A stretch of DNA of 64,000 nt from Nymphaea colorata (lineage: Eukaryota; Streptophyta; Magnoliopsida; Nymphaeales; Nymphaeaceae): assembly GCF_008831285.2 (NCBI RefSeq), contig NC_045145.1, positions 3,326,723 through 3,390,722 of the forward strand. The letters run 5' to 3'. This document shows, one piece after another, positions 19,735 through 60,352 of the stretch. The stretch's first letter is position 1. Every line of letters starts with the position of its first letter. Under the pieces are notes generated by a model, which had not been told where the DNA came from, made no database searches, and was given only the letters and a program-made list of their open reading frames with translations. Position numbers and translations under genes: made by a program.

Positions 19735-21111
19735 ATGGCCGGCAACGGAGGAGCTCATGTTGTCATCCTTCCCAGTGCAGGCATGGGCCATCTCTCCCCT
19801 TTCATTCACCTGGCCTCCGTCCTTTCCAACCATGGCATCTGCGTCACCTTCATCACCACCCTCCCCACCGTCACCGCCGCTGAGTCTGATCGACTCAACT
19901 CCTTCCTCTCCTCCAACCCCCACATCCGTCCTCTGCCTTTCCACCCCACTCCCGTCAGCACAGACAAGGTATCCAACCCTTTCACCATCCAAACTGAATC
20001 CATCCGCCATTCCCCTGCTCTCCTCCGCTCCCTCCTCGCCGACGCCGGCCCCTTCTCGGCTTTCATCTCCGACATCGCCGTCGCATCCTGCACCACCGAC
20101 ATTGCCGCCTCGCTTTCCATCCCCAACTACATCCTCTTCACCTCCTCCGCCACCATGCTTGCATTGGTAGCCTGCTTTCCGGCCACTGCGGAGATCGCCA
20201 CCAGCTCAGCAGCGGCCGATTTCACGATAACCGGCGTCGGCCCCTTCCCCGGCTACTGTCTAGACCCTGCCCTGAGGGACCCCAACAACCTCTTCGTCAC
20301 CCATTTCATGGACAATGGCAGGGCCCTCTCGAAGGCAGCTGGGATCCTCATCAACACGCTGTATGAAATGGAGGACGCTTCTATCAAGGCTCTGAATGAT
20401 GGAGCCGTGGTTGCAGGCTTCCCGAGTGTCTTCTCCATAGGGCCATTAGTATTCGACGGTGAAGCCATGCCTGAAGAGGGCGGCCATGACCAAGTACTAG
20501 AATGGTTAGACCAGCAGCAGGAGAGGTCTGTGGCGTATGTCAGCTTTGGCAGCCGCAATGCCTTGAGCTCGAACCAGATCTTGGAGTTGGCCGCTGGTCT
20601 AGAGAGGTCAGGCTGCAGGTTCTTGTGGGTGGTGAAGACGAAGGACGTCGATATAGACGAAGATGGAGGCGCAGTGCTAGAGGAGCTTCTGCCCGGCGGC
20701 TTTCTCGAGAGGGTGAAGGGAAGGGGGATGGTTGTGAACAGGTGGGTTCGACAGGAGGCGGTCTTAGCTCACCCTGCAGTGGGTGGCTTCGTGAACCACT
20801 GCGGTTGGAACTCTGTCACAGAGGCAGTGTGGCATGGCGTGCCCATATTCGCTTGGCCCCTGACAGCAGACCAGATGATGAATGCCACGGTGGTGGAGAA
20901 GAGCGGAGGTGGGGTTTGGGAGAGGAGCTGGAGAGGGGGAGAAGGGCTGGTGGTGAAGGGAGAGGAGATTGGTAAGCGTTTGAAGGAGTGGATGGAGGAT
21001 GTGAGGCTCAGAGACAAGGCCGGAGAAATCAAACAAAAGGCGAGGAGAGCAGTTGGTTCAGGAGGGTCGTCGGAGATTGCATTAATGGAAGTCATGAAGA
21101 GATGGACCTAA
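19735..21111 (+). CDS. UDP-glycosyltransferase, UGT708-like, type A (A1)
   Basis: An intact intronless family-1 glycosyltransferase of 458 residues, the normal length. The N-terminal acceptor half opens HVVILPSAGMGHLSPF with catalytic His19. The partner Asp is probably Asp113 in AFISDIAVAS. The C-terminal half holds a complete 44-residue PSPG box, residues 337-380, from W337 through HCGWNS to D379-Q380; the final Gln is usual for UDP-glucose donors. The motifs SIPNYILFTSSATM, GILINT and FGSR and the whole PSPG neighbourhood resemble UGT708 enzymes such as rice OsCGT, which C-glucosylate flavonoid-type acceptors. It has no signal peptide, so it should be cytosolic. Third codon positions are strongly C/G-rich at the 5' end. 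It is the only unbroken type A copy in the window. Acceptor and O- versus C-linkage cannot be fixed by eye. Confidence 0.9.
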   Translation: MAGNGGAHVVILPSAGMGHLSPFIHLASVLSNHGICVTFITTLPTVTAAESDRLNSFLSSNPHIRPLPFHPTPVSTDKVSNPFTIQTESIRHSPALLRSLLADAGPFSAFISDIAVASCTTDIAASLSIPNYILFTSSATMLALVACFPATAEIATSSAAADFTITGVGPFPGYCLDPALRDPNNLFVTHFMDNGRALSKAAGILINTLYEMEDASIKALNDGAVVAGFPSVFSIGPLVFDGEAMPEEGGHDQVLEWLDQQQERSVAYVSFGSRNALSSNQILELAAGLERSGCRFLWVVKTKDVDIDEDGGAVLEELLPGGFLERVKGRGMVVNRWVRQEAVLAHPAVGGFVNHCGWNSVTEAVWHGVPIFAWPLTADQMMNATVVEKSGGGVWERSWRGGEGLVVKGEEIGKRLKEWMEDVRLRDKAGEIKQKARRAVGSGGSSEIALMEVMKRWT

Positions 21112-21415
21112 CAGCGTGGAGATGTCGCATGCGTGAGTGATTTTGCGCTTTTTGCTGCTTCTTGTGCATCATCCTCGTAACTTTATTAAAGCATACCAAC
21201 ATCTTTTTATGTCAGAATATAACCTCTTCTTGTGGGTCTTTGCTTTCCAAATGCTATTCTACAAGTCGCAGAAATCTTCCTTCTTGTGCAGAAAACAATG
21301 ACATGCCTACATAGCTGAAATCAGTGGTGTAAAGGGATAGGCCTCAGCACAAGCCCAGTCAAGCTCGAGCTGGCTCGGTTCAACTGAAACATTGAGCTCG
21401 ACTCGACTTGAATTC
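21112..21415 (+). other. 3' flank of UGT A1
   Basis: A 3' flank shared by all type A copies. The sequence around 21200-21340 (ACATCTTTTTATGT, then AGCTGAAATCAGTGGTG) recurs after the A remnant near 27.86-27.98 kb and after the broken A2 near 55.98-56.1 kb. It ends at the AATTC target site of the first Copia element. Confidence 0.7.
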
Positions 21416-21719
21416 TGTCACGCAAAATTAGAAGAGATCAAGAACCGTTTGAGGAGAAGGTTGGGACTCATCTACGGAAATAAAAAAATTATAAAGACTC
21501 TAACCTACCTTCCTCGTCTCTCGTACCGTTAGAATAAGTGACTAAGAAAAGCTGCATATTATATTGTAATCCTATTTAAAGAGCAGCTACACTCTTAACA
21601 AAGACAAGAAATAATACAAAACTCTTCTTCTTTCTACCGTGGATGTCGGCATCTAAGCCGAACCACGTAAATCTTGTTGCTATGTCTTGTGCGTTCTCTG
21701 TTTTTAGCTCAACTTATTA
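21416..21719 (+). repeat. 5' LTR of Copia 1
   Basis: 304 bases, starting TGTCAC and ending CTTATTA, followed by TGGTATCAGAGC, the usual Copia primer site. It matches 25881-26219 throughout. Confidence 0.9.
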
Positions 21720-24700
21720 TGGTATCAGAGCATTATTCGTGATCTTGGCATTCAATGTTCTCCACCATGGCCGAATCTCATATCAATGTAAATCAAGACA
21801 GCAATTCAAGTGATGATGTAAAGAAGTCTATGACTGAGCAGAATAATACCTTGAAGATCACAACAACTCTTCCAAATGGATCCAATTATCTAGGATGGGC
21901 CAAAGCAGCAAGACTCTTTCTTAGTGGGTGATAAAAAATTGGCCTCATAAATGGTAAGATCTCCCCTCTAGACATATCTATGTCTGATCCAAAATTTGAT
22001 GAACAGAAGTTTAAAAATGATTTAGTTATGTCTTGGTTAATTAATTCAATGGAGCCGAGTGTTTCAAATATGCTTGTTTATCATGAAACAACTAAGGATA
22101 TATGAGATACATTAAAAGAAGTATATGAGGAGCAAAATAGTTTGACTAGAGTTTCTCAAATTCAGCTAAAACTTGCTCATATCTCAATGACAGACAAACA
22201 CATACAATTTTGTCTCAGCCAATATCGTAGTTTATGGGAGGAACTAATGCAATATTGCCCTGCTACAACTGATCCAAACGTGTATAGACAACGTTTGGAA
22301 GAGGATAAAATCTTCCATTTCCTTGGTGGACTTGGTGTTGATTTTGAAAGTGTTAGGAGTCAAATACTCATTGCCAAACTTTAATCATGTTTGTCAAACC
22401 ATTCAGAAAGTTATGAATCCGAAAAAGAAAAATGAGCTTGCTGGAGATACAAGTGAAAAGATAGCATACCAAACTCGTTCCGAGCCACTGCCTAACAATT
22501 TCAGACTGATATCAAAGGAAGTGGAAATATGATCATCATGCAAAAAGGAAGAAATCATTTTAAATGTTCATAATGCAAAAAAACTGACACATTAGAGAAA
22601 AATGTTGGGAATAAATGGGAAGCCATCATCAAAGGTGAAACCATTATCATCAAACAGTCCCAACACAACCAACTTCATCACTGTGAAGAGCTGAAAATTT
22701 TTTTTCATCATTTTTCTAAGACAAATCTGGTTTCCACTCAGCCTATTGGAAATTCGTTTTAAGATATACACCATACTCTCATTACTCATTCAAAAAATTT
22801 AGGATGGAGTATTGACGCTTGGGCCACTAATTATATGACTGGTGATCATTCTAAAATAGTTGATCTAAATCTTGAAAAAAATCGGCATGTGTTCATGGCC
22901 GATGGCACACCCTTCACTGTAGAAGGCATTGGGGAATCTTGTTTCTTCAAACCAAATAAAAGATCTTGCGTGCTCTATATTCCTAAACTTTCTACCAATC
23001 TTATATATGTAAATAAGATAACTAAGTCTAAAGCTTATAACTGCTTAGCTATTTTTCCTTCAAAGAATGTGATTTTTTAGGACAAGGAGTTGAGGAAGGA
23101 GATTGGTAGATGGTACAAGCACAATGGTCTATATGTTTTAGACAACATTAAGGCCATTTTTCTTGCTTTAGCAGAAAAGGCATCTAAGAACAAATTGTGG
23201 CACTCTCGGCTTGGTAATATTTCAGGTTGGTCGTTGAAAATTCTTCTTCCAAACGTCAATCCTGATGGGCACCCTTGTGATGCATGAGAATTTTCAAAAT
23301 CCACTATATTACTTTTTCAAAACTCTGGAGAAAGGTTTGTCGAAATTTTTAATTTAATTCATTTTGATGTCTGGAGGCCAGCCCTAATTCTCATTCTGGA
23401 TATAAATACAATGTTTCTTTTATTGATGACAAAACTCACATAACTTGAGTTTATTTTCTTAAAAATAAGAGTGATGTTGCCAAAATTTTTGAAGAATACT
23501 ATGAGCATGTATACACACAGTATCTGACCTAAATAAAAAAATGAGGTCGAATAATGGAGGAGAGTATGTCAATGAAGTTCTTGATAATTTCATGAGAAAG
23601 AAAGACTTATGTCCCCAATTCACTTGTGCCGGTACTCCCCAACAGAATGGCATCGCTGAACACAAGAACTGACAGTTGCTTAATATTGTGAGGTCCCTAA
23701 TGATGAACATGAATGTTCCCATCTATATTTGGTCTCAAGCAATAGGAACCATATCTTATATAGCAAATAGAATACCTAATTTGAGCATTAAGATCAAATT
23801 TCAATCAGTTACTTATTAATAAATCAGTTTCTATTAATCATTTTAAAGTTTTTGGATGCAAATGTTTGGTTCATGTTCCAAAAAAATTTTGGAATACATT
23901 ATAAAAAAAGAGCAATGGAATGTATTTTTCTTGGATATTCAAGTAAAAAGAAAGGGTTCAAATGTTATGAACCTCATTTGAAAAGATTCTTTGTCACTCG
24001 TGACATAAAGTTTTCTAAACAATAACCATTTTATAAGGATAACATTCAGGGGGATACGAAACAACAAAAACTTGTTGATATTAGTCTTCCACAACCATTG
24101 GTAAACATTCATGATAATGTAAGTAAGCGTCCCAATGCCGATCAATTTCTTGGGAACCAAAATCAAAGCAACGGTGATCAGCATCCTCAGTCCAATGAAG
24201 TTAATGTGCTGCTTGTCCTCAAGACGATGAAATGTCTCAAAGGTCAATTCAAGAAATCTTGACCAAACTATGAAGATTGTCTAGATTCACCAAGCGACCA
24301 ACTAGGCTAAATGATTTCTATACATACTTATCTTTTGACAAAATTCATTCTATTGATGATTATCTAATATTTAAAAACTTGTCAAAATCATATCAAGATT
24401 ATGTATTGAATACTTACCACCATAAAGAGCCTACAAATTTCTTGCAGGCAAACATAAATCTAGGATGGTGAGACATGAAAGAAGAACTAAAAACACTACA
24501 AAGAAACCACACTTGGAAAATGGTGCCTCTACCAGAAGGAAAAAAATGATGTTGGGTGTAAGTGGGTGTATCGAATAAAATATCGGAGAAGCAAGATTGC
24601 TTGTAAAGGGATTTACACAAACTAAAGGAATTGTTATAATGAGAGATTCGCCCCAGTTGCCAAAATGAGCTCTCTCAGAATATTACTCTCAGTAGCATAA

Positions 24701-25880
24701 AAAAAAGGGCGGGAACTCCTGCAATTGGACGTAAAAAATGTGTTCTTGTATGGTGGCTTAAATGAAGAAGTTTTCATGGAAACTCTAGAAAGCATAAAAA
24801 ATGAAAAGGGATATGTGCGTAAACTGATGAAGACCCTGTATGCTTTAAAACAGTCTCCCTAGGCATGGTTCTCCCAACTTAGTGAGGCTCTTGTGAAAAT
24901 CGGTTTTTTCAAAAGCACGTCGGACATTACCATGTTTGCCTACAATCGTGCTTCAAAGATTATTATATTACTGGTTTACGTGGATGATATTATAATAATG
25001 GGAGATGACATACAAAACATGACACAATAAAATAGTATCTCGATAAAGAATTGAAGATAAAAGACATATAAGATTGACATACTTTCTTGGCATTGAAGTA
25101 GCGCAATCTGATAAAGGAGTGTTTATTTATCGAAGAAAATACACTCTAGATCTTCTCAAAGAAAGAGGCTACATGGGAACTAAGTGTGCAGTGACTCCAA
25201 TGGAAATCAATTGCAAGTCAAAAAAGGAGGAAGGAAAAGCAATTGAAAATGTGCAAAACTTTCAGAAACTTTTGGAAAACTCATCTATCTTATTATGACC
25301 AGACCAAACATTACATACACTGTCAACCTTGTTAGTAAGTTCATGCACAAGCCAATGCCAACTCATGTAGAAGTTGCACATAGAATTCTAAAATATCTGA
25401 AAGGAACTCTTGTGAGGGAGGATTTTAATAAGAAGAAATGATTATCTCAATGCCATTGGATATGCAGATGCTGATTGAGCAAAAAATCCAAACGATAGAA
25501 GATCAACTTCAGGATACAATACTTTTGTAGGTAGAAATCTATAATCATAGAATAGCAAACAACAATATGTAGTAGCTCCATTAAGCACAAAAGCAAAGTA
25601 TAGAGCCATGGCAGCCTGCACATGTGACATTGAGCCCAAAGAACTGATGAAGTTAATGTGTGATAACATGGTGGCAATGCATATCAGTGAAAGGACAAAA
25701 CACATAAAAGTGGATTGTCACTTTGTTGGAGAAAAAAATCCAAAGTGGAACTATTGAAGCACAACATGTGAGATGCGAACACCAATTGGCTGATATTTTC
25801 ACAAAAGCTCTCAGTAAACAAAAACATTTGCCAACAAGTTCAGACAGATTGATATCTGTGCACCAACTTGAGGGGGAAAA

Positions 25881-26219
25881 TGTCACACAAAATTGGAGAA
25901 GATAAAAAACCATTTGAAGAGAACGTTGGGAGTCACCTAAGGAAATAAAACTTTTAGAAAGACTCCAACCTACCTTCCTCTTCTCTAGTACCATTGCCTC
26001 ATTGGGTGACTAAGAAAAGCTGCCTATTATATTGTAATCCTATTTAAAGGGCAGCTGTAATCTGAACAGATACAATAATACAAAACTCTTCCTCTTTCTA
26101 CCAATAATACAAAACTCTTCCTCTTTCTACCATTTGGATGTCGGTATCTAAGTTGAACCATGTAAATTTTGCTGCTGTGTATTGTCCATTCTCTGTTCTG
26201 TTTTTGGCTGAACTTATTA
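25881..26219 (+). repeat. 3' LTR of Copia 1
   Basis: 339 bases. It is longer than the 5' copy because a segment of about 30 bases (AATAATACAAAACTCTTCC and following) is duplicated in tandem within it near 26075-26130. Confidence 0.9.
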
Positions 26220-26224
26220 AATTC

Positions 26225-27015: not shown

Positions 27016-27683
27016 ATGAACTCTGAGAAGCCATGGATTGTGCTGGTTCCTAGTGCCGGCATGTCTCATATCTTGCTGTTCATCCGCTTCGCTGAGACCA
27101 TCGTCAAACACGGCCTCAACGTCGTCTTTGTTGCCACCAAATCCACAGTCTCATCTGCAGAATCACACCATATTTTCCAATTCCTTTCATCTTCTCCAAG
27201 CATACAACCTCTGTGGTACGACCCTCTTCCCCTGAATCCCGACTTTTCCCACCACAAGACCGCTGATCCATACTACCTACAGCTTGATGCCTTGAGCCGC
27301 TCGAAGGACGTACTTCTCCCTCTGCTAAGCCAACTTGCTACCAAGGCCTCCATCGCTGCCTTCATCTCCGACATCTTCCTTGCTTCATCCATGTGCGACG
27401 TCGCAGAATCACTCTCCATACCGAATTACATCCTCTATTCGTCCTCTGCAACCATGCTTGCTTTCCGTACTTGGTTCTCAAGCTCCGAACCTAATGGCGA
27501 CCCGATCGACGAAATTCGGATTCCGGGCGTCGGTGCCTTCCCGTCTTACTGTGTCCCGCCGGTCTTAAGGAACCCCGAGCACCTCTTCACCACCGTGTCG
27601 CGCAAGAATAACCGAGGTCTAAGCAGAGCGGCTGGAGTTCTCATTAACACGTGCTGCAAGTTGGAGGCAGAGTCTCTACAGGC
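27016..27683 (+). pseudogene. UGT708-like type B, 5' half only (B1)
   Basis: The frame opens like the intact B genes (MNSEKPWIVLVPSAGMSHIL) with catalytic His18 and the Asp in AFISDIFLAS, and follows them to about residue 223 (CKLEAESLQA). There it runs into foreign sequence, adds ten unrelated residues and stops at 27717. The whole donor-binding half, including the PSPG box, is missing, so it cannot bind UDP-sugar. The break coincides with the start of a type A remnant, so a deletion joining two neighbouring units explains it. Confidence 0.88.
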
Positions 27684-27990
27684 AATTGTCATTCATCTCC
27701 GACATCGCCGTCAGTGACTTCAGTAAAAAGTATCCAACCCTTTCACCCTCCAAAGTGAATCCATCTGCCATTCTTCTGCTCCCTCCTCACCGACTCCGGC
27801 CCCTTCTCGGCTTTCATCTCCGACATCGCCGTCAGTGACTTCAGTAAAAAGTTTGCCGACATCTTTTTATGTGAGAATTCAATCTCTTGTTGTTGGTCTT
27901 GTTATTGTAGGTCTTTTTGTAGAAAACTTCCTTGGTGTGCAGCAAACAAAGGCATATATAGCTGAAATCAGTGGTGTAAAGAAGCGATAA
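27684..27990 (+). pseudogene. type A UGT remnant with its 3' flank
   Basis: Pieces of a type A gene: AAGTATCCAACCCTTTCACC and following (27729-27840) match A1 at about 19968-20090, the region encoding the N-terminal half up to FISDIAV. It then jumps straight to the type A 3' flank (ACATCTTTTTATGT, AGCTGAAATCAGTGGTG). Most of the A gene is gone. It is fused directly to B1, which suggests unequal crossing-over or deletion between units. Confidence 0.8.
27692..27852 (+). repeat. 40-bp direct repeat inside the A remnant
   Basis: An identical 40-base segment, beginning TTCATCTCCGACATCGCCGT and ending CAGTAAAAAGT, occurs at 27692-27731 and 27813-27852. Only its first half matches A1, where the text continues differently. 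The repeat sits at both junctions of the rearrangement and may mark the repair event that made it. Confidence 0.9.
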
Positions 27991-29515
27991 GTTGTGAACA
28001 GGCAAGAACAATATTCTTTTAATAAATGAAACTATATAGAAAGAAGTTAAAAAAATAAGAAGAATCTTTTCTTGAAAGAACTGCACATTATAACATTTTG
28101 TGACAAAATTGATAACGATTGAGACCTCGCAAGTTGCCAACGAGTAATTGCAAGTACAGTGGAATTCTGCAACGACATTTATAACTACAGGCAAGGTAGA
28201 ACCAACTTATCAGATTTGAATACAGGGAGCCCTGTGACTAAAAGCGATCCAGACTGGCCGGATCCCTATGGGTTTATTGAGTTGGATATACTTTTAAGTA
28301 GGGTTGCACAATGACCTCGGGATCAATTCCAATTCGCTGTAAAAACTAGACTCAAGCTCAACTTGTTTACAAATGAGTCAAATTTGAGTTACAAGAACTC
28401 GGCTAATTTAAACTCGGTTCCGTTCGCCTACATAAATGTGTCATTATTTAGGAGATATTTGGATGGAAAATGTATACATTCTTTTAAAAAAAAAAAAAAA
28501 AATTATTTTATGTGAAATGGTTGTTCACAATTGAATTAGTTAAAAGAAACAAGTTAAATGAGTTAACAAGTTAAACGATACAAATTAAGTAAATAAAAAT
28601 GAGTTAAACCAGTTAAGCGAGTTGAACTCAAGGTCGACGCTATATAGTATAGTAGAGCTGAAGCCTGTTCTATGAATCTCTACTGAAACTTTGAGCTCCA
28701 GCTCGACTTGAACTCAACAGAATATGTTCGACCTCAACATTGTACAGGAGCTCAACATTAACAAGAACAGGGACTCGATTATCACACCAGCGACAAATTC
28801 AGCGAAAATTGTTTCCATTGACAATTCGCTCTTCAGCCTCGTACCTGAAATTTGGAGTATGAGACCTGACTTTTCTTGGCTGAAATTTTGTTTGTTTGTT
28901 TTCTTTTAAAGAAAATGGGACTCAAGTGCGATTCATTTTCAATGCCAAACTTCGCTGACAATAAGTTTCAGTAATTGGGGTGTCCTCTTTCTCTTGGTTT
29001 CAGTACCCCACTACCCAATCCCTCGACTGGTTTGCTTCTTCTTCTTCTTCTTGTTTTTCTTGGAGACACCATGAATTCAAGAGACACAAAGATGGAATGC
29101 AGAGGCGAATTTGAAACAATAAAAAAGTCGCAGTCATTTAACAATAGAAATTAAAATTTTATAAATAATTCCCAAGCAAGTGGAGGGTTTCACCATCGAT
29201 TTAAAAGCTGGAATTTGGAAAGGATCGCAAGGTTATAATATAAAAAACAAAAGAAGACATTCAAGACAAACTACAGATTAAAAAGGCAACCGGACATGCG
29301 TGGACCCTGGATTCATCCTGAACAATAGTTTTCTTTCACTTCAGATCTCACACAAGCCTCAGATCTTTCCAATTGACTACCAATTGCCTTTCTTATTAAC
29401 ACATTTTCAATGTTCGTTTTGAAAATTTCCCTTTCTTCCAAGCAAGTAACTTGCCCTCCAATTCAATAGCTTTCTAAATTTCCGATCTTTAGCAGCCATC
29501 ATCGAGTCCTGCACC
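27991..29515 (+). other. A-to-B spacer of repeat unit 2 and B2 upstream region
   Basis: A spacer shared with units 3 and 4: the block around 28130-28300 (GCGATCCAGACTGGCCGGAT) recurs at about 34815 and in part near 56390. It is followed by sequence rich in GAGTTAAA and GAGCTCGAC motifs, then by the B-type upstream region matching 26225-27015. The G-box present before B1 is lost here by a short deletion. No coding region is seen. Confidence 0.65.
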
Positions 29516-30910
29516 ATGAACTCTGAGAAGCCATGGATTGTGCTGGTTCCTAGTGCGGGCATATCTCATATCTTGCTGTTCATCCGCTTTGCTGAGACCA
29601 TCGTCGAACATGGCTTCAACGTCGTCTTTGTTGCCACCAAATCCACAGTCTCATCTGCAGAATCACACCATATTTCCCAATTCCTTTCATCTTCTCCAAG
29701 CATACAACCTCTGCGGTACGACCCTCTTCCCCTGAACCCCGACTTTTCCCACCACAAGACCGCTGATCCATACTTCCTACAGTATGATGCCTTGAGCCGC
29801 TCGAAGGACGAACTTCTCCCTCTGCTAAGCGAACTTGCTACCAAGGCCCCCATCGCTGCCTTCATCTCCGACATCTTCCTTGCTTCATGCATGTGCGACG
29901 TTGCAGAATCACTCTCTATACCGAACTACGTCCTCTTCTCCTCCTCTGCAACCATGCTTGCTTTCAGTACCTGGTTCTCAAGCTCCGAACCTAATGGCGA
30001 CCCGATCGACGAAATTCGGATTCGGGGCGTCGGTGCCTTCCCGTCTTACTATATGCCGCCGGTCTTAAGGAACCCCAAGCACCTCTTCACCACCATGTTG
30101 CTCAAAAACAACAGCGCTCTCAGCAGAGCAGCTGGAGTTCTCATTAACACATGCTGTAATTTGGAGGCAGAGTCTCTACAGGCACTCAATGGTGGGAAGG
30201 TTGCGCCGATGTCGTTGCCGAGCGTGTTTCCCATAGGCCCGTTGGTGGGTCGAAGGCCCGCCGGCGGCGAGAGTTGTGCCCATGTGACCGAGTGGCTGGA
30301 CGAGCAGCCTGAAGGCACTGTGCTGTATATCAGCTTTGGGAGTCGCCACGCTCTGGCGCCTGAGCAGATTGAGGAGTTGGCCAATGGGCTGGACATGGCT
30401 GGCTGCAACTTCTTGTGGGTGCTCAAGACCAAGATTGTGGACAAAGAGGAGAGCCAAGGCGAAGCTCAGAATGTGTTGCCTGATGGGTTTGTGGAAAGAG
30501 TTAAGCCCAAGGGCCTGGTTGTAGACAGTTGGACCGACCAAGAAGAAGTGTTGGCCCATGGCTCGGTCGGTGGGTTCCTCAGTCACTGTGGTTGGAGCTC
30601 AGTGGTTGAGGCAGTGTGGCATGGGGTGCCCATCTTTGGATGGCCACAGTTTGGAGATCAGTTGTTCAATGCTATGGTTGTGGAGAGTAGTGGACTGGGG
30701 TTCTGGAAAAGGAGTTGGAGAGGGTGTAATGGAGGAGGGCTGATCAAGGGCGAGGAGATTGGCAGGCAACTGAGAATGTGGATGGAAGACAAGCATGTGA
30801 AGGAGCACGCCCGGCGGCTGCAGGAGGCGGCTCGGAGGTCCATTGGCGTGGCCGGAGACTCCCATAGCACGCTGGCCGAACTCATGGGTAGATGGAAAGC
30901 AGTTGCATAG
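29516..30910 (+). CDS. UDP-glycosyltransferase, UGT708-like, type B (B2)
   Basis: An intact intronless gene of 464 residues. Catalytic His18 lies in VPSAGISHILLF and the partner Asp119 in AFISDIFLAS. The PSPG box runs from W339 to Q382, 44 residues, with HCGWSS where most plant UGTs have HCGWNS, and with D381-Q382 at the end. Other family marks are SIPNYVLFSSSATM, GVLINT, YISFGSR and FLWVLKTK. Overall it is UGT708-like but clearly distinct from type A. It should be a cytosolic UDP-glucose-dependent enzyme. It differs from B4 at scattered positions, for example MLLKNN versus VFHKNN after FTT. A poly(A) signal AATAAA lies at 30972. The acceptor is unknown. Confidence 0.9.
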   Translation: MNSEKPWIVLVPSAGISHILLFIRFAETIVEHGFNVVFVATKSTVSSAESHHISQFLSSSPSIQPLRYDPLPLNPDFSHHKTADPYFLQYDALSRSKDELLPLLSELATKAPIAAFISDIFLASCMCDVAESLSIPNYVLFSSSATMLAFSTWFSSSEPNGDPIDEIRIRGVGAFPSYYMPPVLRNPKHLFTTMLLKNNSALSRAAGVLINTCCNLEAESLQALNGGKVAPMSLPSVFPIGPLVGRRPAGGESCAHVTEWLDEQPEGTVLYISFGSRHALAPEQIEELANGLDMAGCNFLWVLKTKIVDKEESQGEAQNVLPDGFVERVKPKGLVVDSWTDQEEVLAHGSVGGFLSHCGWSSVVEAVWHGVPIFGWPQFGDQLFNAMVVESSGLGFWKRSWRGCNGGGLIKGEEIGRQLRMWMEDKHVKEHARRLQEAARRSIGVAGDSHSTLAELMGRWKAVA

Positions 30911-32685: not shown

Positions 32686-32728
<43 letters not shown>

Positions 32729-41038: not shown

Positions 41039-41086
<48 letters not shown>

Positions 41087-49560: not shown

Positions 49561-49581
49561 TTGTTATTGTGAGTGTTCTCG

Positions 49582-49727
49582 TGACAGTGGTTGCAGGCTT
49601 CGTGAGTGTCTTCCACATAGGGCCATTAGTAGTTGGCGGTGAAGCCATGCCTAAAGTAGGCGGCCATGACCAAACACTAGAATGGTTAGACCAGCAGAAG
49701 GAGAGGCCTGTGGCGTTTGTCAGCTTT
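49582..49727 (+). pseudogene. UGT708-like type A, internal piece (A2, left part)
   Basis: Encodes a segment matching A1 residues 226-271: VAGFVSVFHIGPLVVGGEAM, then HDQTLEWLDQQKERPVAFVS. The first half of the gene is missing and the piece abuts the Copia fragment. At CAGCTTT it is cut by Copia element 3. The remainder of the gene resumes at 55019. Confidence 0.88.
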
Positions 49728-50241
49728 CTTGTGGCTGCTAATAGAGGAGAAGGAGAAGAAGAAAGCAAAGAAGAGAAGGGGAGAAGGAAGGCAAGAAGGA
49801 AAGAGGAAGAAGAGCACGGTTGTGGGTTTGGGCAGCCGTGTGGGTTCAAGTGTAGAGAGAGAAAGTGAAGAAAACAAGGGAAAGAAAAGAAGAACATATG
49901 TGATTTCTTTTCTTGTTGTTTTCTTGTGCATTCATTCTTGAGAATGATTTATGCTATTCTTTGCAAGAAGAACAATGTAGTTGTATTGCCTCTTTGAAAT
50001 ATAAATATATATCTCTCTTGCCCGTGGTTTTTTACCCCATTATTGGGGGTTTTTCCACGTAAATTGGTGTCTCCTATTTTTCTGCATCTCTATCATATAT
50101 TTTGATATATATTGCTGCAACATTGGTGTTGAAAATTCAATCTTATGCTCGCTGTCCTGTGATTTTGTTTTTAGCAGTTTTGTGGTGGTTTGCCCTCTTT
50201 TATTGTTGTTGAGCATTCTTTTAGGAGACACGACTATAACA
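49728..50241 (+). repeat. 5' LTR of Copia 3, 5'-truncated
   Basis: Matches 54505-55018 of the 3' LTR. The first 150 bases of the LTR are absent; the junction falls at a short AGCTT homology between the UGT gene and the LTR, so a small deletion after insertion is likely. Confidence 0.85.
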
Positions 50242-53200
50242 AAGTGGTATCAGAGACAGGTTAGCGCCAGGTTGGTTGGGTGCATTCTTATTAAAGGATG
50301 GAGTCGACCCCCACTAGGATGGTCTCTTTAAATGGGAACAATTGGACTATATGGAAAGCGAAAATGGAAGATTTGCTGTATTGTAAAGACCTATATGCAC
50401 CCATTGAGAACCAGAAGCCAGCGAATATGACAAATGACAAATGGAAGTTATTGGATAGAAAAACCATTAGCACCATCAGACAATGGTTAGATGACTGTGT
50501 TTTTCATTTGGTATCCACAGAGACGAGCGCGAAGTCGTTATGGCAGAAGTTGCATGATCTTTACGAGAGGAAAACAGCTGGGAACAAGGCTTTCTTGATT
50601 AGGCAATTGGTAAATCTAAAACTTAGAGAGAGAAAACCAGTGTCAGAGCATTTGAATGAAGTGCAGAGCATAATCAATCAGTTGTCAGTCATGAAAATGA
50701 TATTAGATGATGAGTTACAGGCACTCTTGTTACTTAGTTCTCTTCCCGACAGTTAGGAGATTTTAGTTGTTTCTTTGAGCAACTCCGCTCTAGATGGTGT
50801 GCTTACAATGAAGCATGTAACCAGCAACATTCTAAATGAAGAAACAAGAAGAAATTCTCTTGGTACTGGTAGCTCGCAAGTGCTAGTGATTGGAGACAGG
50901 GGCAGACAAAAGAACCATAACAAATGGCATGACAGGTCAAACTCTAGGTCCAAATCAAGACCCAAGATGACAGGTAAATGCTTCCACTGTAGTATTCCAG
51001 GGCACAAAAAGATTGATTGCAGGAAATTGAAAGAAGAAAAAGAGCAAAAAAAGAAGACTCAAGAGAATGTGAAGCTAAAAGAGTACACTGCAGTTGCTTC
51101 AGATGATGAGGTAGTGTTATTTTTATCTGAAGAAAATGATTGTCTTACGGTTCAGAATGGTGATTCTACATGGATTTTTGATACAGGGGCATCATATCAT
51201 GCCACACCATGTAGAGAGTTATTCTTATCATATAGAGCAGGTGATTTTAGAGTAGTTCACATGGGCAATAGTGACACTGTGAAGATTGTTGGGATAGGAG
51301 ATGTTTGCATTCAGACGAGCATAAGATGCAAGTTGACTTTGAGAGATGTGAGACATGTTCCAGACTTGAGAATGAATTTGATTTCTGCAGGAAGACTAAG
51401 TGAAGATGGATATTGTACTTCGTTTAGTCAGACATGTTGGAAACTTACCAAGGGGGCACTAGTGTTGGCTAGAGGTGACAGATTTGGCTCATTGTATGAG
51501 ATGAAGTCTCAAATCAGTAGTGTGGATGTTAATGCAGTTACTGGTCGTACTTCGTCAGATTTGTGACATAAGAGGTTAGGTCACATGAGTCAAAGAGGAA
51601 TCGACTTGCTCACCAAGAAGAATTTGTTACCAAGCAGATGGTGCACAGATATCTCCATGTGATCATTGTTTGGTTGGTAAGTTGCATCGAGTTTCCTTTC
51701 AGAAAAAGCGCTCTTCAAAAACTAAACATGTTTTAGATTTAGTTTATTCAGATGTATGTGGACCTATAAATGTGACATCTAAAGGTGGAGCATCCTATTT
51801 TGTTACATTCATTGATGATGCATCTAGGAAGGTGTGGGCCTTTACAATGAAAAGCAAAAGTGAAGTAAGTAGCATCTTCATGACTTTTCATGCAGCGGTT
51901 GAGTGCGAGACTGGTAAGAAGATGAAGAGACTGCGTACAGATAACAATGGTGAGTACATAGCATCTTCTTTACGAGAGTATTGTCTAAAACATGGTATTA
52001 GACATGAAAAGACAGTTCCCTATACTCCATAGCATAATAAAGTTGAAGAAAGGATGAATAGAACAATAATTGAGAGAATTAGAAGTTTGTTATCTAGCTC
52101 TAAGTTGCCTAAGTATTTTTGGGTAGATGCAATGCGTACTGCAGTTTATTTAATAAATAAGTCTCGTTCAGTGCCTCTAGATTGAGACATTCCACAGAGA
52201 GTTTGGTCAGATGAAGAGGTTAAGTATGATCACCTCAGAGTTTTTGGTTGCAAAGCATTTATGCATGTACCTAAAGAATATAGGACCACATTAGATGATA
52301 AAGCCATTCCTCTAATATTTCTTGGTTATGCAGATGATGAATTTGGTTACAGGTTATGAGATCCAAAGAATGACAATCTACAGGAGTCGTGATGTTGTAT
52401 TCAGAGAGGATCAGATTATTGAAGATGTCATGGGAGACACGAAGTCAGGTGTGAATGCTAGTGGTATTCATGAGCCAACCTATGCAGAACCTGAAGAACT
52501 TTCATCTGAGCATGGTGAGACTGATGAAGATATAGAGAAAGAGGAAAGAGAGGCAGATGAGCAGTATACACATGGCAGCCCTATGGAGACTCAAACTGAT
52601 TATGAGCATGAGTTGGAGGAGGAGTTTCTTCCTCATTCAGAACCAATTGAGGAGCAATTGAGAAGAGGTAAAAGAACACGTATACCATCTACTAGATATT
52701 CTACTGATGAATATATTATGTTTGCAGATAGTGGAGAGCCAGAATGCTATGCAGATGTGCTAGATGATGTGCATAAAGATGAATGGATTAAAGCTATGAA
52801 GGATGAGATGAATTCTTTATACAAGAATCACACTTTTGATTTAGTAGAGCTATCAAAAGTTAAGAAAGTGTTGCAGAACAAGTGGGTCTACAAGCTTAAA
52901 AATGAAGGTCAAGGCAAGTTGAGATACAAAGCTCGGTTAGTGGTGAAAGGTTTCAAGCAGGAAAGAGGTATTGATTTTGATGAAATTTTTTCTCCTGTTG
53001 TTAAAATGTCATCTATCAGGGTAATACTTGGTATGGTGGCTTGTCTAGACTTGGAGTTGGAGCAGTTAAATGTAAAAACTGCTTTTCTTCATGGAGATCT
53101 AGAGGAAGAATTCTACATGACACAGCCAGAAGGTTTTGTGGTTGCCAGGAAGAAACACATGGTTTGTAAGTTGAAGAAGAGCTTGTATGGACTTAAACAA

Positions 53201-54346
53201 GCACCCAGACAGTGGTACAAAAAATTTGATGCATTTATGATAAATCAAAAGTATCGCAGGTCAGCCGTAGATCATTGTGTCTACATCAGAGAGCTCTCAT
53301 CAGGTAGCTTCATTATCTTGTTGTTATATGTTGATGACATGCTTATTGTTGGACAGGATTGTCAATTGATTATCCAATTAAAGATCGATATGGACAAGTT
53401 CTTTGATATGAAAGACTTGGGGTCAGCACAACAATTGTTAGGCATGAGGATTGTTCGTGATAGGAAGGCCAAGAAGTTGTGGTTATCACAAGAGAAATAC
53501 ATTGAGAAGGTGCTTAGCAAGTTCAACATGAAAGATGTCAAAACTGTAAGTACACCTTTAGCAGCACATTTTAAATTGGAAAATGAGCAATGTCCTTGTT
53601 CAGCAGATGAAAAAGAAAGAATTGAGAATGTTTCATATGCCTCCGCAGTAGGGAGTCTCATGTATGCTATGGTTTGCACACGCCCAGACTTGGCTTATAC
53701 AGTTGGTGTAGTTAGCTGGTTCTTGTCAAATCCAAGCAAGGAGCATTGGGCAGCAGTGAAGTGGATCCTAAAAAAGTACTTCCACTTACTGTTTATGTTT
53801 TGATGAATCTAATCCAGAGATACAAAGATTTGTTGATGCAGACATGACAGATGATTTGAACTCTAGGAAGTTTCTTTGTGGTTATGTTTTTACTTTTGCA
53901 GGGGGAGCTGTATCATGGCAGTCCAGGTTGCAGAAGTGTGTTGCTCTTTCCACTACAGAGGCAGAATATATTGCAGCAACTGAAGCTTTTAAAGAGTTGT
54001 TGTGGATGAAGAGTTTTCTTCATGATATAGGCCTTAGTCAGAAGACCTATGTGTTGCATTGTGATAGCCAAAGCGCTATACATTTGGCGAAGAATTCAGC
54101 GTTCCACTCGAGGACTAAGCACATTGATATCAGATATTATTGGATACGTGATGTGCTTGAGCAAAAATTGATTCAGTTAGAGAAGATAAAGACAGAGAAG
54201 AATCCTGCAAATATGATGACGAAGTCTCTACCTAAGGAGAAACATGATATGTGTAGAGACTTAGTTGGGATGACTGCCTTTAAGGCAATGTATTAATTTT
54301 GTTCATTTTGCAGGTATGATCCCTCTCTTAGGCTGGAGGGGGAGTT

Positions 54347-55018
54347 TGTTGGGTCGGGTCCAGCCTCAAGACCCGATCCGGCCCGTCACTTAAGTGACAG
54401 GCGGGAGAAAGGAGAGAGCACCCGATGGTGCCCTCATTGCTCTCACATCCCTCTCTCTCTCTATCGTGGGTTTCTTTTTTGGGGAAAAAGAGAAGGGGAA
54501 GCTTCTTGTGGCTACTAATAAAGGAGAAGGAGAAGAAGAAAGCAAAGAAGAGAAGGAGAGAAGGAAGGCAAGAAGGAAAGAGGAAGAAGAGCACGGTTGT
54601 GGGTTTGGGCAGCCGTGTGGGTTCAAGTGTAGAGAGAGAACGTGAAGAAAACAAGGGAAAGAAAAGAAGAACATAGGTGATTTCTTTTCTTGTTGTTTTC
54701 TTGCGCATTCATTCTTGAGAATGATTTATGCTATTCTCTGCAAGAAGAACAACGTAGTTGTATTGCCTCTTTGAAATATAAATATATCTCTCTCTTGCCT
54801 GTGGTTTTTTACCCCATTATTGGGGGTTTTTCCACGTAAATTGGTATCTCCTATTTTTCTGCATCTCTAGCATATATTTTGATATATATTGCTGCAACAT
54901 TGGTGTTGGAAATTCAATCTTATGCTCGCTGCCCTGTGATTCCGTTTTTAGCAGTTTTGTGGTGGTTTGCCCTCTTTTATTGTTGTTGAGCATTCTTTTG
55001 GGGGACACGACTATAACA
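54347..55018 (+). repeat. 3' LTR of Copia 3
   Basis: 672 bases starting TGTTGGGTCGGG directly after the polypurine tract and ending CTATAACA. The TGTTGGG...ACA ends are standard. Confidence 0.9.
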
Positions 55019-55874
55019 AGCTTTGGCAGTCGCAATGCCTTGAGCACGAACCTGATCTTGGAGTTGGCTGCTGGTCTAGAGAGGTCAGGCTGCAGGTTCT
55101 TGTGGGTGGTGAAGAGAGGACATCGATATAGACGAAGACGTAGGCGCAGTGCTGGAGGAGCTTCTGCCCGGTGGATTTCTCGAGAGGGTGAAGGGAAGGG
55201 TGAAGAATTGCGATAAAACAGAGTTTGGACAGAGCTAAGAGAGATGAAGAGAAGACATTTGACGTGGCTGGGCTATTGTTGACTATGTCCACGGGGAGAG
55301 AGATCAATCTTCTTTATTCAAAAATTGAATTACAATTTCTGCTATACAGCAGAGGCTAATGGCGTTAAGAGAGCAGGAGCTGCCAAAATAAAGGGAACGT
55401 TTATTCAGCGTTTAATTGGAATAGTAGCTCCTTCCTTATTCATTCAATTAATGAAAAGGGCAATTGATGATCACTCAACGTCTCTTTAATTTTATCAAAG
55501 GGGAATGGTTGTGAACAGATGGGTTCGACAGGAGCCGGTCTTAGCTCACCCTGCAATGGGTGGGTTCGTCAACCACTCGGCTGGAACTTTGTCACAGAGG
55601 CAGTGTGGCATGGCGTGCCCATATTCGCTTGGCCCCTGACAGGAGACCAGATGCTGAATGCCACAGTTGTGGAAAAGAGCGGAGGTAGAGTTTGTGAGAG
55701 GAGCTCGAGAGGGGGAGAAGGGCTGGTGGTAAAGGGAGAGGAGATTGGTAAGCGTTTGAAGGAGTGGATGGAGGATCTGAGGTTCAGAGAGGAGGGATAA
55801 ATCAAAGAGAAGGCGAGGAGAGCGGAGGGTCGTCGGAGATTGCATTAATGGAAGTCATGAAGAGATGGACCTAA
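55019..55874 (+). pseudogene. UGT708-like type A, 3' part (A2, right part)
   Basis: Resumes A2 after Copia 3: [20 protein letters not shown], then FLWVVK. A deletion near 55115 shifts the frame, a solo LTR interrupts it at 55201-55497, and within the PSPG box the HCGWN codons have lost a base (AACCACTCGGCTGG). A further stop arises near 55798. The final codons EVMKRWT and stop at 55872-55874 match A1. It is dead as a gene, but it proves an A copy once stood just before B4. Confidence 0.9.
55201..55497. mobile_element. short solo LTR (Copia- or TRIM-like) in UGT A2
   Basis: A 297-base insert with TG and CA ends (TGAAGAATTG and TTTTATCA), flanked by the 5-base duplication AAGGG at 55196-55200 and 55498-55502. 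A1 has the uninterrupted text GAAGGGAAGGGGGATGG. There is no coding sequence or second LTR, so a solo LTR of a small retrotransposon is the best reading. Which family cannot be told. Confidence 0.65.
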
Positions 55875-57184
55875 CAGGGTGGAGAAGTCACAAGCATGCT
55901 TGAGTGATTTTTGCCTAATTTTTGCTGGTTCCTGTTCATTTTCCTCACCCGTCAACTTTAGTATAAAGTATACCAACATCTTTTTATGTAAGAATACAAT
56001 CTATTGTTGTTGGCCTTGTTATTGTAAGTCTTTTTGTAGCAAACTTCCTTAGTGTGCAGTAAACAAAGTCATATATAGCTGAAATCAGTGGTGCAAAGAA
56101 TCGACGAGTTGTGAATAGGCAAAAACATTATTTTTTAATAAATGAAATTATACAGAAAAAAGTTAAAAATAAAAAGAACATTTTCTTGAAAGAAATGTAT
56201 ATAATAACATTTTCTGACAAAATTGATAGCGATTGAGCCCTCGTCAGTTGCCAACGAGTAGTTGCAACTGCAGTGTGATTAATGCGATTTTACAACGACA
56301 TTTATAACTACTGACATGGTAGAACCAACTTTTCAATGAACACCTCCTTCTGCATAACTAATTAGAATCACATGATCAGATTTAAATACGACCTGTGACT
56401 GGCCGGATTCCTGTGTGCTTAGTTAATTGGATATACTTTTATGTGGGGCTGTAAAAACTGGACTCAGCTTGACAGGTTTGCACTTTAAATTTATGCTCAA
56501 AATGTTAAATGAGTAGTGGATCGGCTGGGGTGACTGCATAAATGAGTCATGAACGAGACATTTTCTATTGCAAAGTTTTTTTAAGGGATATATGGACTTA
56601 GAATATATGCATTTTTTTTTAATTTTCTGTTAAATGGTTGTTCAAAATTGAATTAGTTGAAAGAAACGAATTAAAGAAGTTAAACGAGTTAACAAGTTAA
56701 ACGACTGAAAAAAAAAACTAAACAGGTTAAGTTAATAGAAACTAGTTAAGCAAGTTGAACTCAAGTTTGTGTGCAGCCCTAAGTAAGTCGCTCGTGTACA
56801 GCTACTTTTAGGTAATGCTTCCCTACAAAAAAGTGAGTCGCTCGTGTACAGCCCTACTTTTAGGTAATGTTCCCTAATAAAAAGTAGGAAAGGAATCGTA
56901 GGAAACAAAAGAAGACATATTCATGTGATCAAAGGCAAACTACAGATTAAAGAGGCAACCGGACGTGCATATTTGACCAGTAGATTTCTTTCACTTCGGA
57001 TCTCACCCAACCCTCAGATCTTTCCAAGCCTACGAATCGCCTCCTTATTAGCAGATTTTTTATGTTGGCTCTTGAAAGTTTTCCCTTCTACCAACATATA
57101 ACCAGGTTTGGTTAGTAACTTGCCCTTTGATTCAATAGCTTTCCAACATTCTGATCTGTAGCAGCCATCACCGAGTGGTGCACC
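55875..57184 (+). promoter_or_regulatory. A-to-B spacer of unit 4 and B4 upstream region
   Basis: Type A 3' flank to about 56110, then the shared spacer (ATTTATAACTACTGACATGG, GTAGAACCAACTTTTC), a part rich in GTTAAACGAG motifs, a small tandem duplication around GTGAGTCGCTCGTGTACAGC near 56780-56860, and the B-type upstream region. A TATA-like CATATAACC lies at 57096, about 85 bases before the ATG. No coding region. Confidence 0.6.
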
Positions 57185-58579
57185 ATGAACTCCGAGAAGC
57201 CATGGATTGTGCTGGTTCCAAGTGCGGGCATGTCTCATATCTTGCTGTTCATCCGCTTTGCTTCGACCATCATGGAACACGGCCTCAACGTCGTCTTTGT
57301 TGCCACCAAATCCACAGTCTCATCTGCAGAATCACACCATATTTCCCAATTCCTTTCATCTTCTCCAAGCATACAACCTCTGTGGTACGACCCTCTTCCC
57401 CTGAATCCCGACTTTTCCCACCACAAGACCGCTGATCCATACTACCTACACTTTGATGCCTTGAGCCGCTCGAAGGACGTACTTCTCCCTCTGCTAAGCC
57501 AACTGGCTACCAAGGCCTCCATCGCTGCCTTCATCTCTGACATCTTCCTTGCTTCATGCATGTGCGACGTCGCAGAATCACTCTCTATACCGAATTACGT
57601 CCTCTACTCGTCCTCTGCAACCATGCTTGCTTTCAGCATCTGCTTCTCAAGCTCCGAACCAAATGGCGACCCGATCGAGGAAATTCTGATTCCGGGAGTC
57701 GGCGCCGTCCCGTCTTACTGTGTCCCACCGGCCTTAAAGAACCCCGAGCACCTCTTCACCACCGTGTTTCACAAGAACAACAGAGCTCTCAGCAGAGCAA
57801 CTGGAGTTCTCCTCAACACATTCTACAAGTTGGAGGCAGAGTCTCTACAGGCACTCAATGGTGGGAAGCTGGCGCCGACGTCATTGCGGCGCGTGTTTCC
57901 CATAGGCCCGTTGGTGGGTCGAAGGCCCGCCGGCGGCGAGAGTTGTGCCCTTGTGACTGAGTGGCTGGACGAGCAGCCTGAGGGCAGGGTGCTGTATATC
58001 AGCTTTGGGAGTCGCACCCCTCTGGCGCCTGAACAGATTGTGGAGCTGGCCAATGGGCTGGAGATGGCTGGCTGCAACTTCTTGTGGATGCTCAAGACCA
58101 AGATTGTGGACAAAGAGGAGAGCCAAGGGGAAGCACAGAATGTCTTGCCTGATGGTTTTGTGGAAAGGGTTAAGCCCAGGGGCCTGGTTGCAGACACTTG
58201 GGCGGACCAAGAAGAAGTGTTGGCCCATCGCTCGGTCGGTGGCTTCCTTGGCCACTGTGGTTGGAGCTCTGTGGTTGAGGCAGTGTGGCATGGGGTGCCC
58301 ATTTTTGGGTGGCCACAGGCTGCAGATCAGTTGCTCAATGCTATGGTTGTGGAGAGGAGTGGACTGGGGTTCTGGGAAAGGAGTTGGAGAGGGTCTAATG
58401 GAGGAGAGCTGATCAAGGGCGAGGAGATTGGCAGGCAACTGAGACTGTGGATGGGAGACAAGCATGTCAAGGAGCGCGCCCGGCAGCTACGGGAGGAGGC
58501 TCGGACGTCGATCGGGGCGGCCGGAGACTCTCATAGAACTCTTGCCGAACTCATGGACGCATGGAAAGCAGTTGCATAA
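57185..58579 (+). CDS. UDP-glycosyltransferase, UGT708-like, type B (B4)
   Basis: The second intact type B gene, 464 residues, colinear with B2 without gaps. It has catalytic His18 (VPSAGMSHILLF), Asp119 (AFISDIFLAS) and a complete PSPG box, residues 339-382, with HCGWSS and a final D-Q. Differences from B2 cluster around residues 165-205 (for example GAVPSYCVPPALKNPEHLFT) and at the end of the PSPG box (WPQAADQ versus WPQFGDQ), both near the acceptor and donor pockets, so the two enzymes may differ in substrate use. AATAAA lies at 58640. It is expected to be cytosolic and UDP-glucose dependent. The B3 remnant shares more of the B4-type residues (CVPSALKNPEHLFTT) than of B2. Confidence 0.9.
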   Translation: MNSEKPWIVLVPSAGMSHILLFIRFASTIMEHGLNVVFVATKSTVSSAESHHISQFLSSSPSIQPLWYDPLPLNPDFSHHKTADPYYLHFDALSRSKDVLLPLLSQLATKASIAAFISDIFLASCMCDVAESLSIPNYVLYSSSATMLAFSICFSSSEPNGDPIEEILIPGVGAVPSYCVPPALKNPEHLFTTVFHKNNRALSRATGVLLNTFYKLEAESLQALNGGKLAPTSLRRVFPIGPLVGRRPAGGESCALVTEWLDEQPEGRVLYISFGSRTPLAPEQIVELANGLEMAGCNFLWMLKTKIVDKEESQGEAQNVLPDGFVERVKPRGLVADTWADQEEVLAHRSVGGFLGHCGWSSVVEAVWHGVPIFGWPQAADQLLNAMVVERSGLGFWERSWRGSNGGELIKGEEIGRQLRLWMGDKHVKERARQLREEARTSIGAAGDSHRTLAELMDAWKAVA

Positions 58580-59984
58580 TCATGGATCCTTGTTCTCTAG
58601 AATCAGTAGATGTGTAGGTTGATTGTGGAACGCCAATTTAATAAATTAGCTGTAGAAATTTATGCAGGAATGAAGACGTCCGATTCTGTGGTTCACGAAA
58701 CTGCTTAATTTGTTCATCTTCAAAGAAGACAAATTTCACCGGAGCCCATCCTTTTTAGTTCCAGTGCTGTTTCAAGCTTTTGTTGAAATGCCTCTTCAGC
58801 AGCACCAATTTGAACGACACATTTCTTGTTTCGTCTAATGCCTGTTCGTATTTCTCTTTCACTCTTTTTCATTTGAATGTAATGGCCTTGCTTGTCAGCT
58901 TTCGAAAGAAAGATGTAATAACATTGCTTCAAGCATTTCGATGTTGTTTCTTGTGTAGTTAAAATGTTTCTTGTGGAGTTATATTTTTTTTTTAATTGCA
59001 CGTTGTATGTAACTTGACGGTTGCACGTAAGTTAAAATATGTGGGAGACAGAAATCGTTCCCGTGTGTATATATATATATATATATTTGAGTGAGAGAGA
59101 GAAGAGGTCTGAGGCCGTTAAGCCAGGGACAAAAACTAGACGGCATATGGCAACGACTTCTTTTTTTTAATCTAATGCAATCTAACTTTACTGATATAAC
59201 CTTAAGAAAATGTTGGCTGAAAAGATATAATAAGTTCATTATTTCTTGGAGTTTAATAGTCCTTTTATAATAAGCAAGGATGAACCCTTTATATAATGTC
59301 AACATTTTCATAGTACAACTTCACTTCTTTCACAAAAACAACTTGAATTAAAGCATGTTTTACATAAAAATATTTTTAGCATATATGAGGATGCTTATAT
59401 TTTGTTTAAAATATTTTCTGTTCAACCCAGATAATGGGAATACAAAAACAACAGTTGTAATTTACAATGAAGGTTCTATTACATAAATTCACAATGAAAT
59501 AAGTCAACAAATTGTTGATAATTTTAGGCCGTCTTTCATATGAAGATTGTACAAGTACATGTGTTCAATACATGAAAATTAGTACATTAATCTTGCATGC
59601 ATCAATGGGAGAAATCAGGAGGTGTGGGCAAACCTGCATAAAAGAAGTAAAATATGTTCTAAGAAATTGAGGGAGCAGTAAAATATATAATATATTCAAA
59701 ACTTAATAGAATGATCCCGCAAGCGAAACTATAATTTGACTGGTATGATCTTTCAGCATATCCACCCTTGCACATTTAGCCTCTAGCTCAAGGACCTTTA
59801 CACAGGTTGCCTCGAACTGAGGTACTCTAGCACATGTTGCTTTGAACTAATCATATCTTGTACATTTCTCCTCAAGTACAACTAGATTTCCCTGTAGTGT
59901 ATTGACTTGTTCTTTTAATATACTTAATATTCTCATTGTGCATATTTTAGCAAAGCTATCTTCTCCCATCACTTGGGATAGGAC
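58580..59984 (+). other. downstream flank of B4 and AT-rich spacer
   Basis: To about 58980 it matches the flanks of B2 and B3. A TA tract and GA run lie at 59069-59100. Beyond that the sequence is AT-rich without recognised coding or repeats. Confidence 0.55.
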
Positions 59985-60152
59985 TAGTGGCAGAGCCAGG
60001 ACAGTCCAACCTCTGGATCCGGGTAAGGCCAAACTGAATTTAAATCTAAAAAATACATAGAGTGATTAAAAAATAATATTTTTTTCAATGTAAAAGTTTT
60101 TTTTTCATTGGCAGTGTGGAGCCATGGCCTATGCGCCCCCCCCCCCCCCCTG
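59985..60152. mobile_element. small hAT-type MITE with 8-bp target duplication
   Basis: 168 bases, flanked by the identical octamer GATAGGAC at 59977-59984 and 60153-60160. The left end is TAGTGGCAGAGCCAGG and the right end is a C-run followed by TG, a weak inverted match to the CAGTGG/CAGGGG ends of a widespread plant hAT MITE type. The C-run at 60136-60150 is inside it. No coding capacity. Confidence 0.7.
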
Positions 60153-60284
60153 GATAGGACATCATCGCTGCCAGGTAAGTCAGATGCTTCATGGAGCAAA
60201 GTAGTTATCTTTTTCTTTTAGCTTTTCCTAATGTATTTACATGCATAGAAGATTAGTATACAATAACATATATATGCTTGTACC

Positions 60285-60352
60285 CAATCGCCTCCTTATT
60301 AGCATATCTTTGTTGTTGGCTCTTGAAAGCTTCCCCTTCTACCAACATATAA
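60285..60352 (+). repeat. trace of a fifth B-type upstream region
   Basis: AATCGCCTCCTTATTAGC, then GTTGGCTCTTGAAAG and CTACCAACATATA match the B4 upstream region at about 57036-57100 with few changes. The similarity stops before the start codon and no B coding sequence follows. It is a leftover of another repeat unit. Confidence 0.75.

Follow-up and report, generated by a model that had tools for sequence, protein, structure and literature searches.

A tandem array of two diverged UGT708-like gene types, apparently copied as a pair, with an unusually altered second type

Two described plant systems are the closest to the locus considered here, a tandem array of two types of UGT708-like glycosyltransferase genes, designated A and B, in a 64,000-nucleotide stretch of Nymphaea colorata contig NC_045145.1 (positions 3,326,723 to 3,390,722; the whole stretch is called the window below). 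In grass genomes the UGT708A genes of clade A and clade B are found in tandem with varying copy number (PMC7060329), and the rice clade B enzymes arabinosylate the mono-C-glucoside nothofagin, the proposed order of action being clade A and then clade B (PMC8196924). In Grona styracifolia 13 tandem UGT708 genes were described, where GsCGTa gives a C-glucoside and GsCGTa together with GsCGTb gives a C-glucosyl-C-arabinosyl product (PMC11119794). Like the grass clusters, the present array contains two diverged UGT708 lineages; unlike them, it appears to have the A-B block as the copied unit, and most copies are broken. The Grona cluster is also a tandem one and possesses a first-step and a second-step enzyme with function shown there, whereas a two-gene repeat unit is not described for this legume in the accessible part of the report (PMC11119794). 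The open-licence PMC literature on tandem or alternating UGT708 genes, as far as its text was accessible, describes arrays, and no alternating two-gene repeat was seen in it.

The best explanation of the locus, with a probability of about 80%, is a local UGT708 cluster in which an A-B block was copied in tandem and then mostly broken, and in which type B was most likely functionally altered. All copies named in the first-pass annotation were recovered by self-comparison in the same order and on the + strand, and are arranged in the following units:

Unit 1, + strand: A1 at 19735-21111, a spacer interrupted by a Copia element, B1 at 27016-27687.
Unit 2: A remnant at 27727-28212, spacer, B2 at 29516-30910, 3' flank, intergenic DNA at 32751-34658.
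Unit 3: only the A 3' flank at 34668-34892, spacer, B3 at 35652-36503 and 40478-40520, 3' flank, intergenic DNA at 42364-47662.
Unit 4: A2 in pieces within 49587-56098, spacer, B4 at 57185-58579, 3' flank.

Chance is excluded as a source of the array because self-comparison of 19001-64000 gave 43 matches (including three long terminal repeat (LTR) pairs and the A-to-B coding matches), while each of 20 dinucleotide shuffles gave 0; when the whole window was compared with itself at lower sensitivity, 45 non-self matches were obtained. In these self-comparisons no array match was found upstream of 19966 except the coding relation of A1 itself to B, and A1 is thus the left edge of the array.

The segment order per unit is A gene, A flank, spacer, B gene, B flank, and intergenic DNA bearing a long interspersed nuclear element (LINE). 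The segments outside the genes that carry this comparison are:

28205-28677, + strand: A-to-B spacer of unit 2, matching the unit 3 spacer (34790-35246) at 86.2%.
30945-31441, + strand: 3' flank of B2, matching the 3' flanks of B3 and B4.
58664-58972, + strand: 3' flank of B4.
32751-34658, no strand assigned: B-to-A intergenic DNA after B2, matching 42364-47662 in pieces.
42364-47662, no strand assigned: B-to-A intergenic DNA after B3, corresponding piecewise and in the same order to 32751-34658.
33632-33961, - strand: LINE zf-RVT fragment (PF13966, 5.1e-10) within one shared intergenic segment.

They form colinear multi-segment repeats in one orientation, with Kimura two-parameter distances of 0.08-0.29 for the noncoding segments. 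The synonymous divergence (dS) was 0.144 for A1-A2 (0.078-0.217, 203 codons) and 0.151 for B2-B4 (0.107-0.200, 464 codons; 0.187, 0.122-0.267, from B residue 227 onward), so that the A-pair and B-pair values are equal within wide, overlapping intervals. Colinear segments and similar dS together bear out the earlier claim that the copied block was a pair of different glycosyltransferase genes and not one gene. Independent single-gene duplications of A and B, with alternation being only apparent, would agree with the fact that after the losses no two units share identical complete content; however, A flank, spacer, B, B flank, and intergenic DNA hold one order and one orientation across units and the synonymous divergence of the A and B pairs is compatible, which makes such a history highly improbable. 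A segment of about 3 kb in the intergenic DNA after B3 (42920-45891) has no counterpart after B2 and is possibly another insertion.

According to these data the following block history is well supported. Two lineages of UGT708, A and B, with about half of their residues identical and each closest to the other, lie side by side. A block that comprised A, the spacer, B, and the LINE-bearing intergenic DNA behind it was copied in tandem, most simply by unequal crossing-over, to at least 4 units in two or more events. Deletions and Copia insertions then broke most copies, with A1, B2, and B4 left whole. In this process A and B were presumably copied together as neighbours, for which a functional link is not needed, and B, under moderate purifying selection, most likely became a UDP-glycosyltransferase (UGT) with a different acceptor or sugar donor.

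The order of the unit duplications may be obscured by gene conversion among the B copies: 28 of 36 informative sites join B1 with B2 and B3 with B4, 3 and 5 sites conflict with this, and all eight conflicting sites fall between alignment columns 198 and 746. In addition, B3 (35652-36503) and B4 (57185-58045) are 99% identical in one 100-column stretch and 82-96% elsewhere.

The degree of decay differs between the copies, and whole reading frames were found only in A1, B2, and B4. The type A copies are:

19735-21111, + strand: A1, an intact, intronless UGT708-type gene of 458 aa.
27727-28212, + strand: A remnant of unit 2, with the region of A residues 78-117 at 27727-27836 and then the A 3' flank at 27829-28212.
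34668-34892, + strand: A 3' flank of unit 3, 86.6% identical to 56248-56456; the A gene itself is gone.
49587-49727, + strand: first piece of A2, A residues 227-271.
55019-56098, + strand: remaining A2 pieces and 3' flank, with coding pieces at 55019-55199 and 55499-56098 and frame breaks; pseudogene.

The loss of the third A gene is marked by the junction 34658/34668, because it unites sequences that lie 8.6 kb apart in unit 4 (47662 and 56248). Residues 1-226, which make up the 5' part of A2, were not recovered; at 55200-55498 A2 has about 300 bp extra versus A1. The type B copies are:

27016-27717, + strand: B1, the first 224 B residues (to 27687), then cut and continuing through a 40-bp repeat into A-derived sequence that contains a stop.
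29516-30910, + strand: B2, intact, intronless, 464 aa.
35652-36503, + strand: 5' part of B3, with a frame break and stops; pseudogene.
40478-40989, + strand: remainder of B3, with about 43 bp still coding (40478-40520), about 0.5 kb deleted in comparison with B2, and the 3' flank after it.
57185-58579, + strand: B4, intact, intronless, 464 aa.

The alternating copies of the first-pass annotation are therefore present in order, but only A1, B2, and B4 are intact, while B1, B3, and A2 are broken. At the junction of B1 and the A remnant a perfect 40-bp direct repeat (27692-27731 and 27813-27852) was observed, which may be of the kind left when a double-strand break is repaired with filler DNA. 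The suggested trace of a fifth B upstream region was also located:

60284-60352, + strand: 67-69 bp resembling the B upstream region, 91% identical to B4, 85% to B3, and 82% to B1.

The match exists (91% over 67 bp to B4), but it is a single short one and could be a dispersed element.

Three insertions have the paired LTRs, short target repeats, and pol domains of Copia LTR retrotransposons; the site repeats were judged by eye and are least clear for the element in A2:

21416-26219, + strand: old Copia-type element between A1 and B1, LTRs at 21416-21719 and 25881-26219, 84.2% identical without gaps.
36503-40477, - strand: Copia-type element in B3, with LTRs of 96.7% ungapped identity and flanked on either side by GAGTT (by eye); the pieces of its integrase region lie on the - strand.
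49722-55019, + strand: Copia element in A2, LTRs 96.5% identical, with gag, Pol_BBD, and RVT_2.

The old element is flanked by AATTC on both sides and has a Met-type primer site directly after the 5' LTR and, ahead of the 3' LTR, a purine tract (all by eye); Pol_BBD was detected above cut-off (1.5e-10) and RVT_2 below it (0.036), while a third frame scanned inside the element gave no domain match. The interpretation of 21416-21719 and 25881-26219 as a duplicated A 3' flank was rejected, since they are the LTR pair of this element. With the element removed, 143 bases across the junction of the A1-B1 spacer align to the uninterrupted unit 2 spacer (28679-28816) at 83%, and without the element A1 and B1 are thus a pair about 1.1 kb apart.

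The membership of both types in the UGT708 group is well supported. PF00201 was above cut-off in A1, B2, and B4, and the plant secondary product glycosyltransferase (PSPG) box was aligned, which identifies plant family 1 UGTs (GT1); the fragments of B1 and B3 gave no Pfam match. For A1 as for B2, each of the top 14 PDB rows is a chain with the name CGT, UGT708, or “UDP-glycosyltransferase 13”, the last of which is listed as MiCGT (PMC11096472). Behind them the score falls: the next row has 249 bits as against 321 for A1, and 211 as against 281 for B2. Protein identity is 49-50% for A1-B2, 86% for B2-B4, and 35-47% to nine UGT708 references, with 47% for A1 to GgCGT and 43% for B2 to both GgCGT and MiCGT among the best values. 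In a 14-row tree of A1, B2, B4, the nine UGT708 references, and two UGT72B1-like outgroup rows, with the B1 fragment left out, A and B grouped together (94/93), apart from the monocot group (85/91) and the eudicot group (94/91), while in the first tree of 12 rows the A+B support was 91/91. The UGT708-type rows were separated from the two UGT72B1-like rows with 100/100 in the trees with 10 and 12 ingroup rows. The best PDB rows and the trees thus agree with the first-pass annotation in calling both types UGT708-like, and a position of A or B far outside UGT708 was rejected by these rows and the 14-row tree. The two types seem to go back to an old tandem duplication in this plant's own lineage, and they group together outside the two grass enzymes compared, among which there is no grass clade B sequence. 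Within-lineage UGT708 pairs are also known in LpCGTa/LpCGTb (6lg1, 6lfn) and SbCGTa/SbCGTb (6lg0, 6lfz), which are 52% and 63% identical.

Type B looks like an unusually altered UGT708 lineage that is still constrained. Of the 71 positions that do not vary among the nine references, 16 are changed in B2, 16 in B4, and 7 in A1. When the references are omitted one at a time, the omitted one departs at 2-10 of 73-81 positions, and the highest counts belong to LpCGTb (10) and UGT708C1 (9); at 90 positions invariant in seven references (without LpCGTb and SbCGTb) A1 departs at 9, B2 at 22, and B4 at 24. The changes approach the catalytic His closely, with Gly to Ser just before it and Leu to Ile and, three residues after, Pro to Leu behind it, so that the loop GMGHLxPF of the references becomes GxSHILLF in B. 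These His-adjacent changes are present in 0 of the 9 references, the LpCGT and SbCGT pairs included. Further B changes are Phe to Tyr in the DPFxL motif and Arg to Asn in the RFLW stretch. The DPFxL equivalents are NPFTI in A1, DPYFL in B2, and DPYYL in B4 and B1, compared with DPFLR in LpCGTb and DPFFI in SbCGTa and SbCGTb; the A remnant of unit 2 also reads NPFT. The solved C-glycosyltransferases GgCGT and MiCGT keep DPFF and GMGHLTP, unlike A1 with NPFT and B with DPY and GxSHILL. The N-terminal His and its partner Asp are found in both A1 (His19, Asp113) and B2 (H18, D119), and the final Gln of the PSPG box is retained in A1 and in B. AlphaFold modelling based on an alignment of four sequences, all taken from the window, gave poor results, with a mean predicted local distance difference test (pLDDT) score of 43.1 for B2 and 43.4 for A1.

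These changes could mean that B is a decaying lineage with open frames and without a working glycosyltransferase product, which would agree with the 16 of 71 invariant positions changed (among them the His-adjacent Gly, the Pro, and the RFLW Arg), the Asn to Ser change in the PSPG box, and the breakage of 2 of the 4 B copies. Such decay seems rather unlikely, however, since two full-length frames remain, B has retained His, Asp, and the final PSPG Gln, LpCGTb, the structure of which is solved (6lfn), also has an altered PSPG box (HSGSSS), and the dN/dS ratio (omega) of B2-B4 was 0.48 with an upper bound of 0.70 (0.32-0.70), which indicates that B is still under some constraint; for B1-B4 it was 0.37 (0.21-0.67).

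In the donor site A1 has the residues of glucosyl-type references, namely, Thr at the position of GgCGT T145, HCGWNS, and the final Gln, while in B two residues differ, with Ser replacing Thr at the T145 position and replacing Asn at PSPG position 23 (HCGWSS for HCGWNS). LpCGTb has Ser at both positions, while SbCGTb has Val and Asn. The T145 residue of GgCGT is reported to bind the 6-OH of glucose (PMC10589286), and SbCGTb is called an arabinosyltransferase in the same source. DPFxL was reported as a predictor of 2-hydroxyflavanone C-glycosylation (PMC9563126); neither A1 nor B retains it, and SbCGTa, SbCGTb, and LpCGTb deviate as well, hence the motif is not decisive. According to a citing paper, D85 and R292 of UGT708D1 are needed for C-glucosylation (PMC7326982), and by our own reading of the spacing D85 would correspond to the Asp lost in A1. 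Most likely A1 glucosylates a phenolic acceptor, perhaps on carbon. For B the leading specific guess, a tentative one, is a second-step C-glycosyltransferase.

A related rival proposal holds that the pair was kept and copied because its two products work one after the other on a single acceptor, for instance with C-glucosylation by A and then C-pentosylation or C-rhamnosylation by B to a hetero-di-C-glycoside. The precedent of the tandem UGT708A genes of rice (PMC8196924, PMC7060329) and of GsCGTa/GsCGTb in Grona (PMC11119794) speaks for it. So do the LpCGTb-like Ser at the T145 position and the PSPG Asn to Ser change of B beside the Thr and Asn kept in A1. LpCGTb has a second-step role. However, of the 20 positions where both B2 and B4 depart, 4 are shared with LpCGTb (P = 0.44) and 4 with SbCGTb (P = 0.11), and the idea that the B changes track these two enzymes overall was rejected, the overlap being no better than chance. 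The donor does not follow from the presence of Ser in this loop, and the Viola enzymes VtCGTa and VtCGTc, which differ in donor, have Thr or Val at the T145 position (PMC11096472); since the relation of loop to donor is not simple, a pentosyltransferase role for B from Thr to Ser alone was rejected. Moreover, A1 carries NPFTI and not DPFxL, and no second intact A-B pair is left: of the A copies, a remnant persists in unit 2, the gene has been deleted from unit 3, and a Copia insertion breaks that of unit 4, so there is no whole A beside B2, B3, or B4, and the loss of these three A copies while B2 and B4 survive argues against strict coupling. Sequential action as the reason for keeping the pair is thus a doubtful, if specific, proposal.

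The suggestion of the first-pass annotation that the two products act together has a precedent in successive UGT708 action, but co-duplication does not demonstrate partnership, because adjacency alone explains joint copying, and the pair was not kept as a pair. Successive action in tandem UGT708 arrays is already described in grasses and Grona, and the present sequence neither proves nor excludes it here. Somewhat less probable still, B may represent an undescribed UGT708 subfamily with a rebuilt His loop and donor site and a new donor or acceptor, which together with the glucosyltransferase-like A would make a hetero-di-C-glycoside or another doubly glycosylated product.

Several points weigh against the explanation by a copied A-B block with an altered B. 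The A-pair dS interval is wide, and equal divergence of A and B is only compatible with joint copying and does not prove it. The tree supports A+B at values just below the customary 95 and draws on few references (nine UGT708 and two outgroup rows); the OsCGT row was entered by hand, and the reference 7va8 is an engineered MiCGT variant. The B changes could equally reflect relaxed constraint, an omega near 0.5 being high for an enzyme, and the missing DPFxL Asp in A1 speaks against plain 2-hydroxyflavanone C-glucosylation.

The locus is a clear case of two diverged enzyme genes copied as a unit, where breakpoints, inserted elements, and losses are still readable, and it exposes a UGT708 lineage altered where nine compared enzymes stay constant. 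If B is active, A1 with B2 or B4 would provide a compact test of donor or acceptor change in C-glycosyltransferases after duplication.

Among the 20 window frames that were domain-scanned, a part of all frames, no flavonoid-pathway partner gene was found. Upstream of the array there are two genes:

6998-11767: DUF863 “plant protein” gene.
13410-15863: PPR gene with E motif.

These two genes together with the LTR retrotransposons and LINE fragments identify the window as plant DNA. A second LINE fragment (zf-RVT, 1.2e-12) is located at 16341-16942 beside the PPR gene, upstream of the array.

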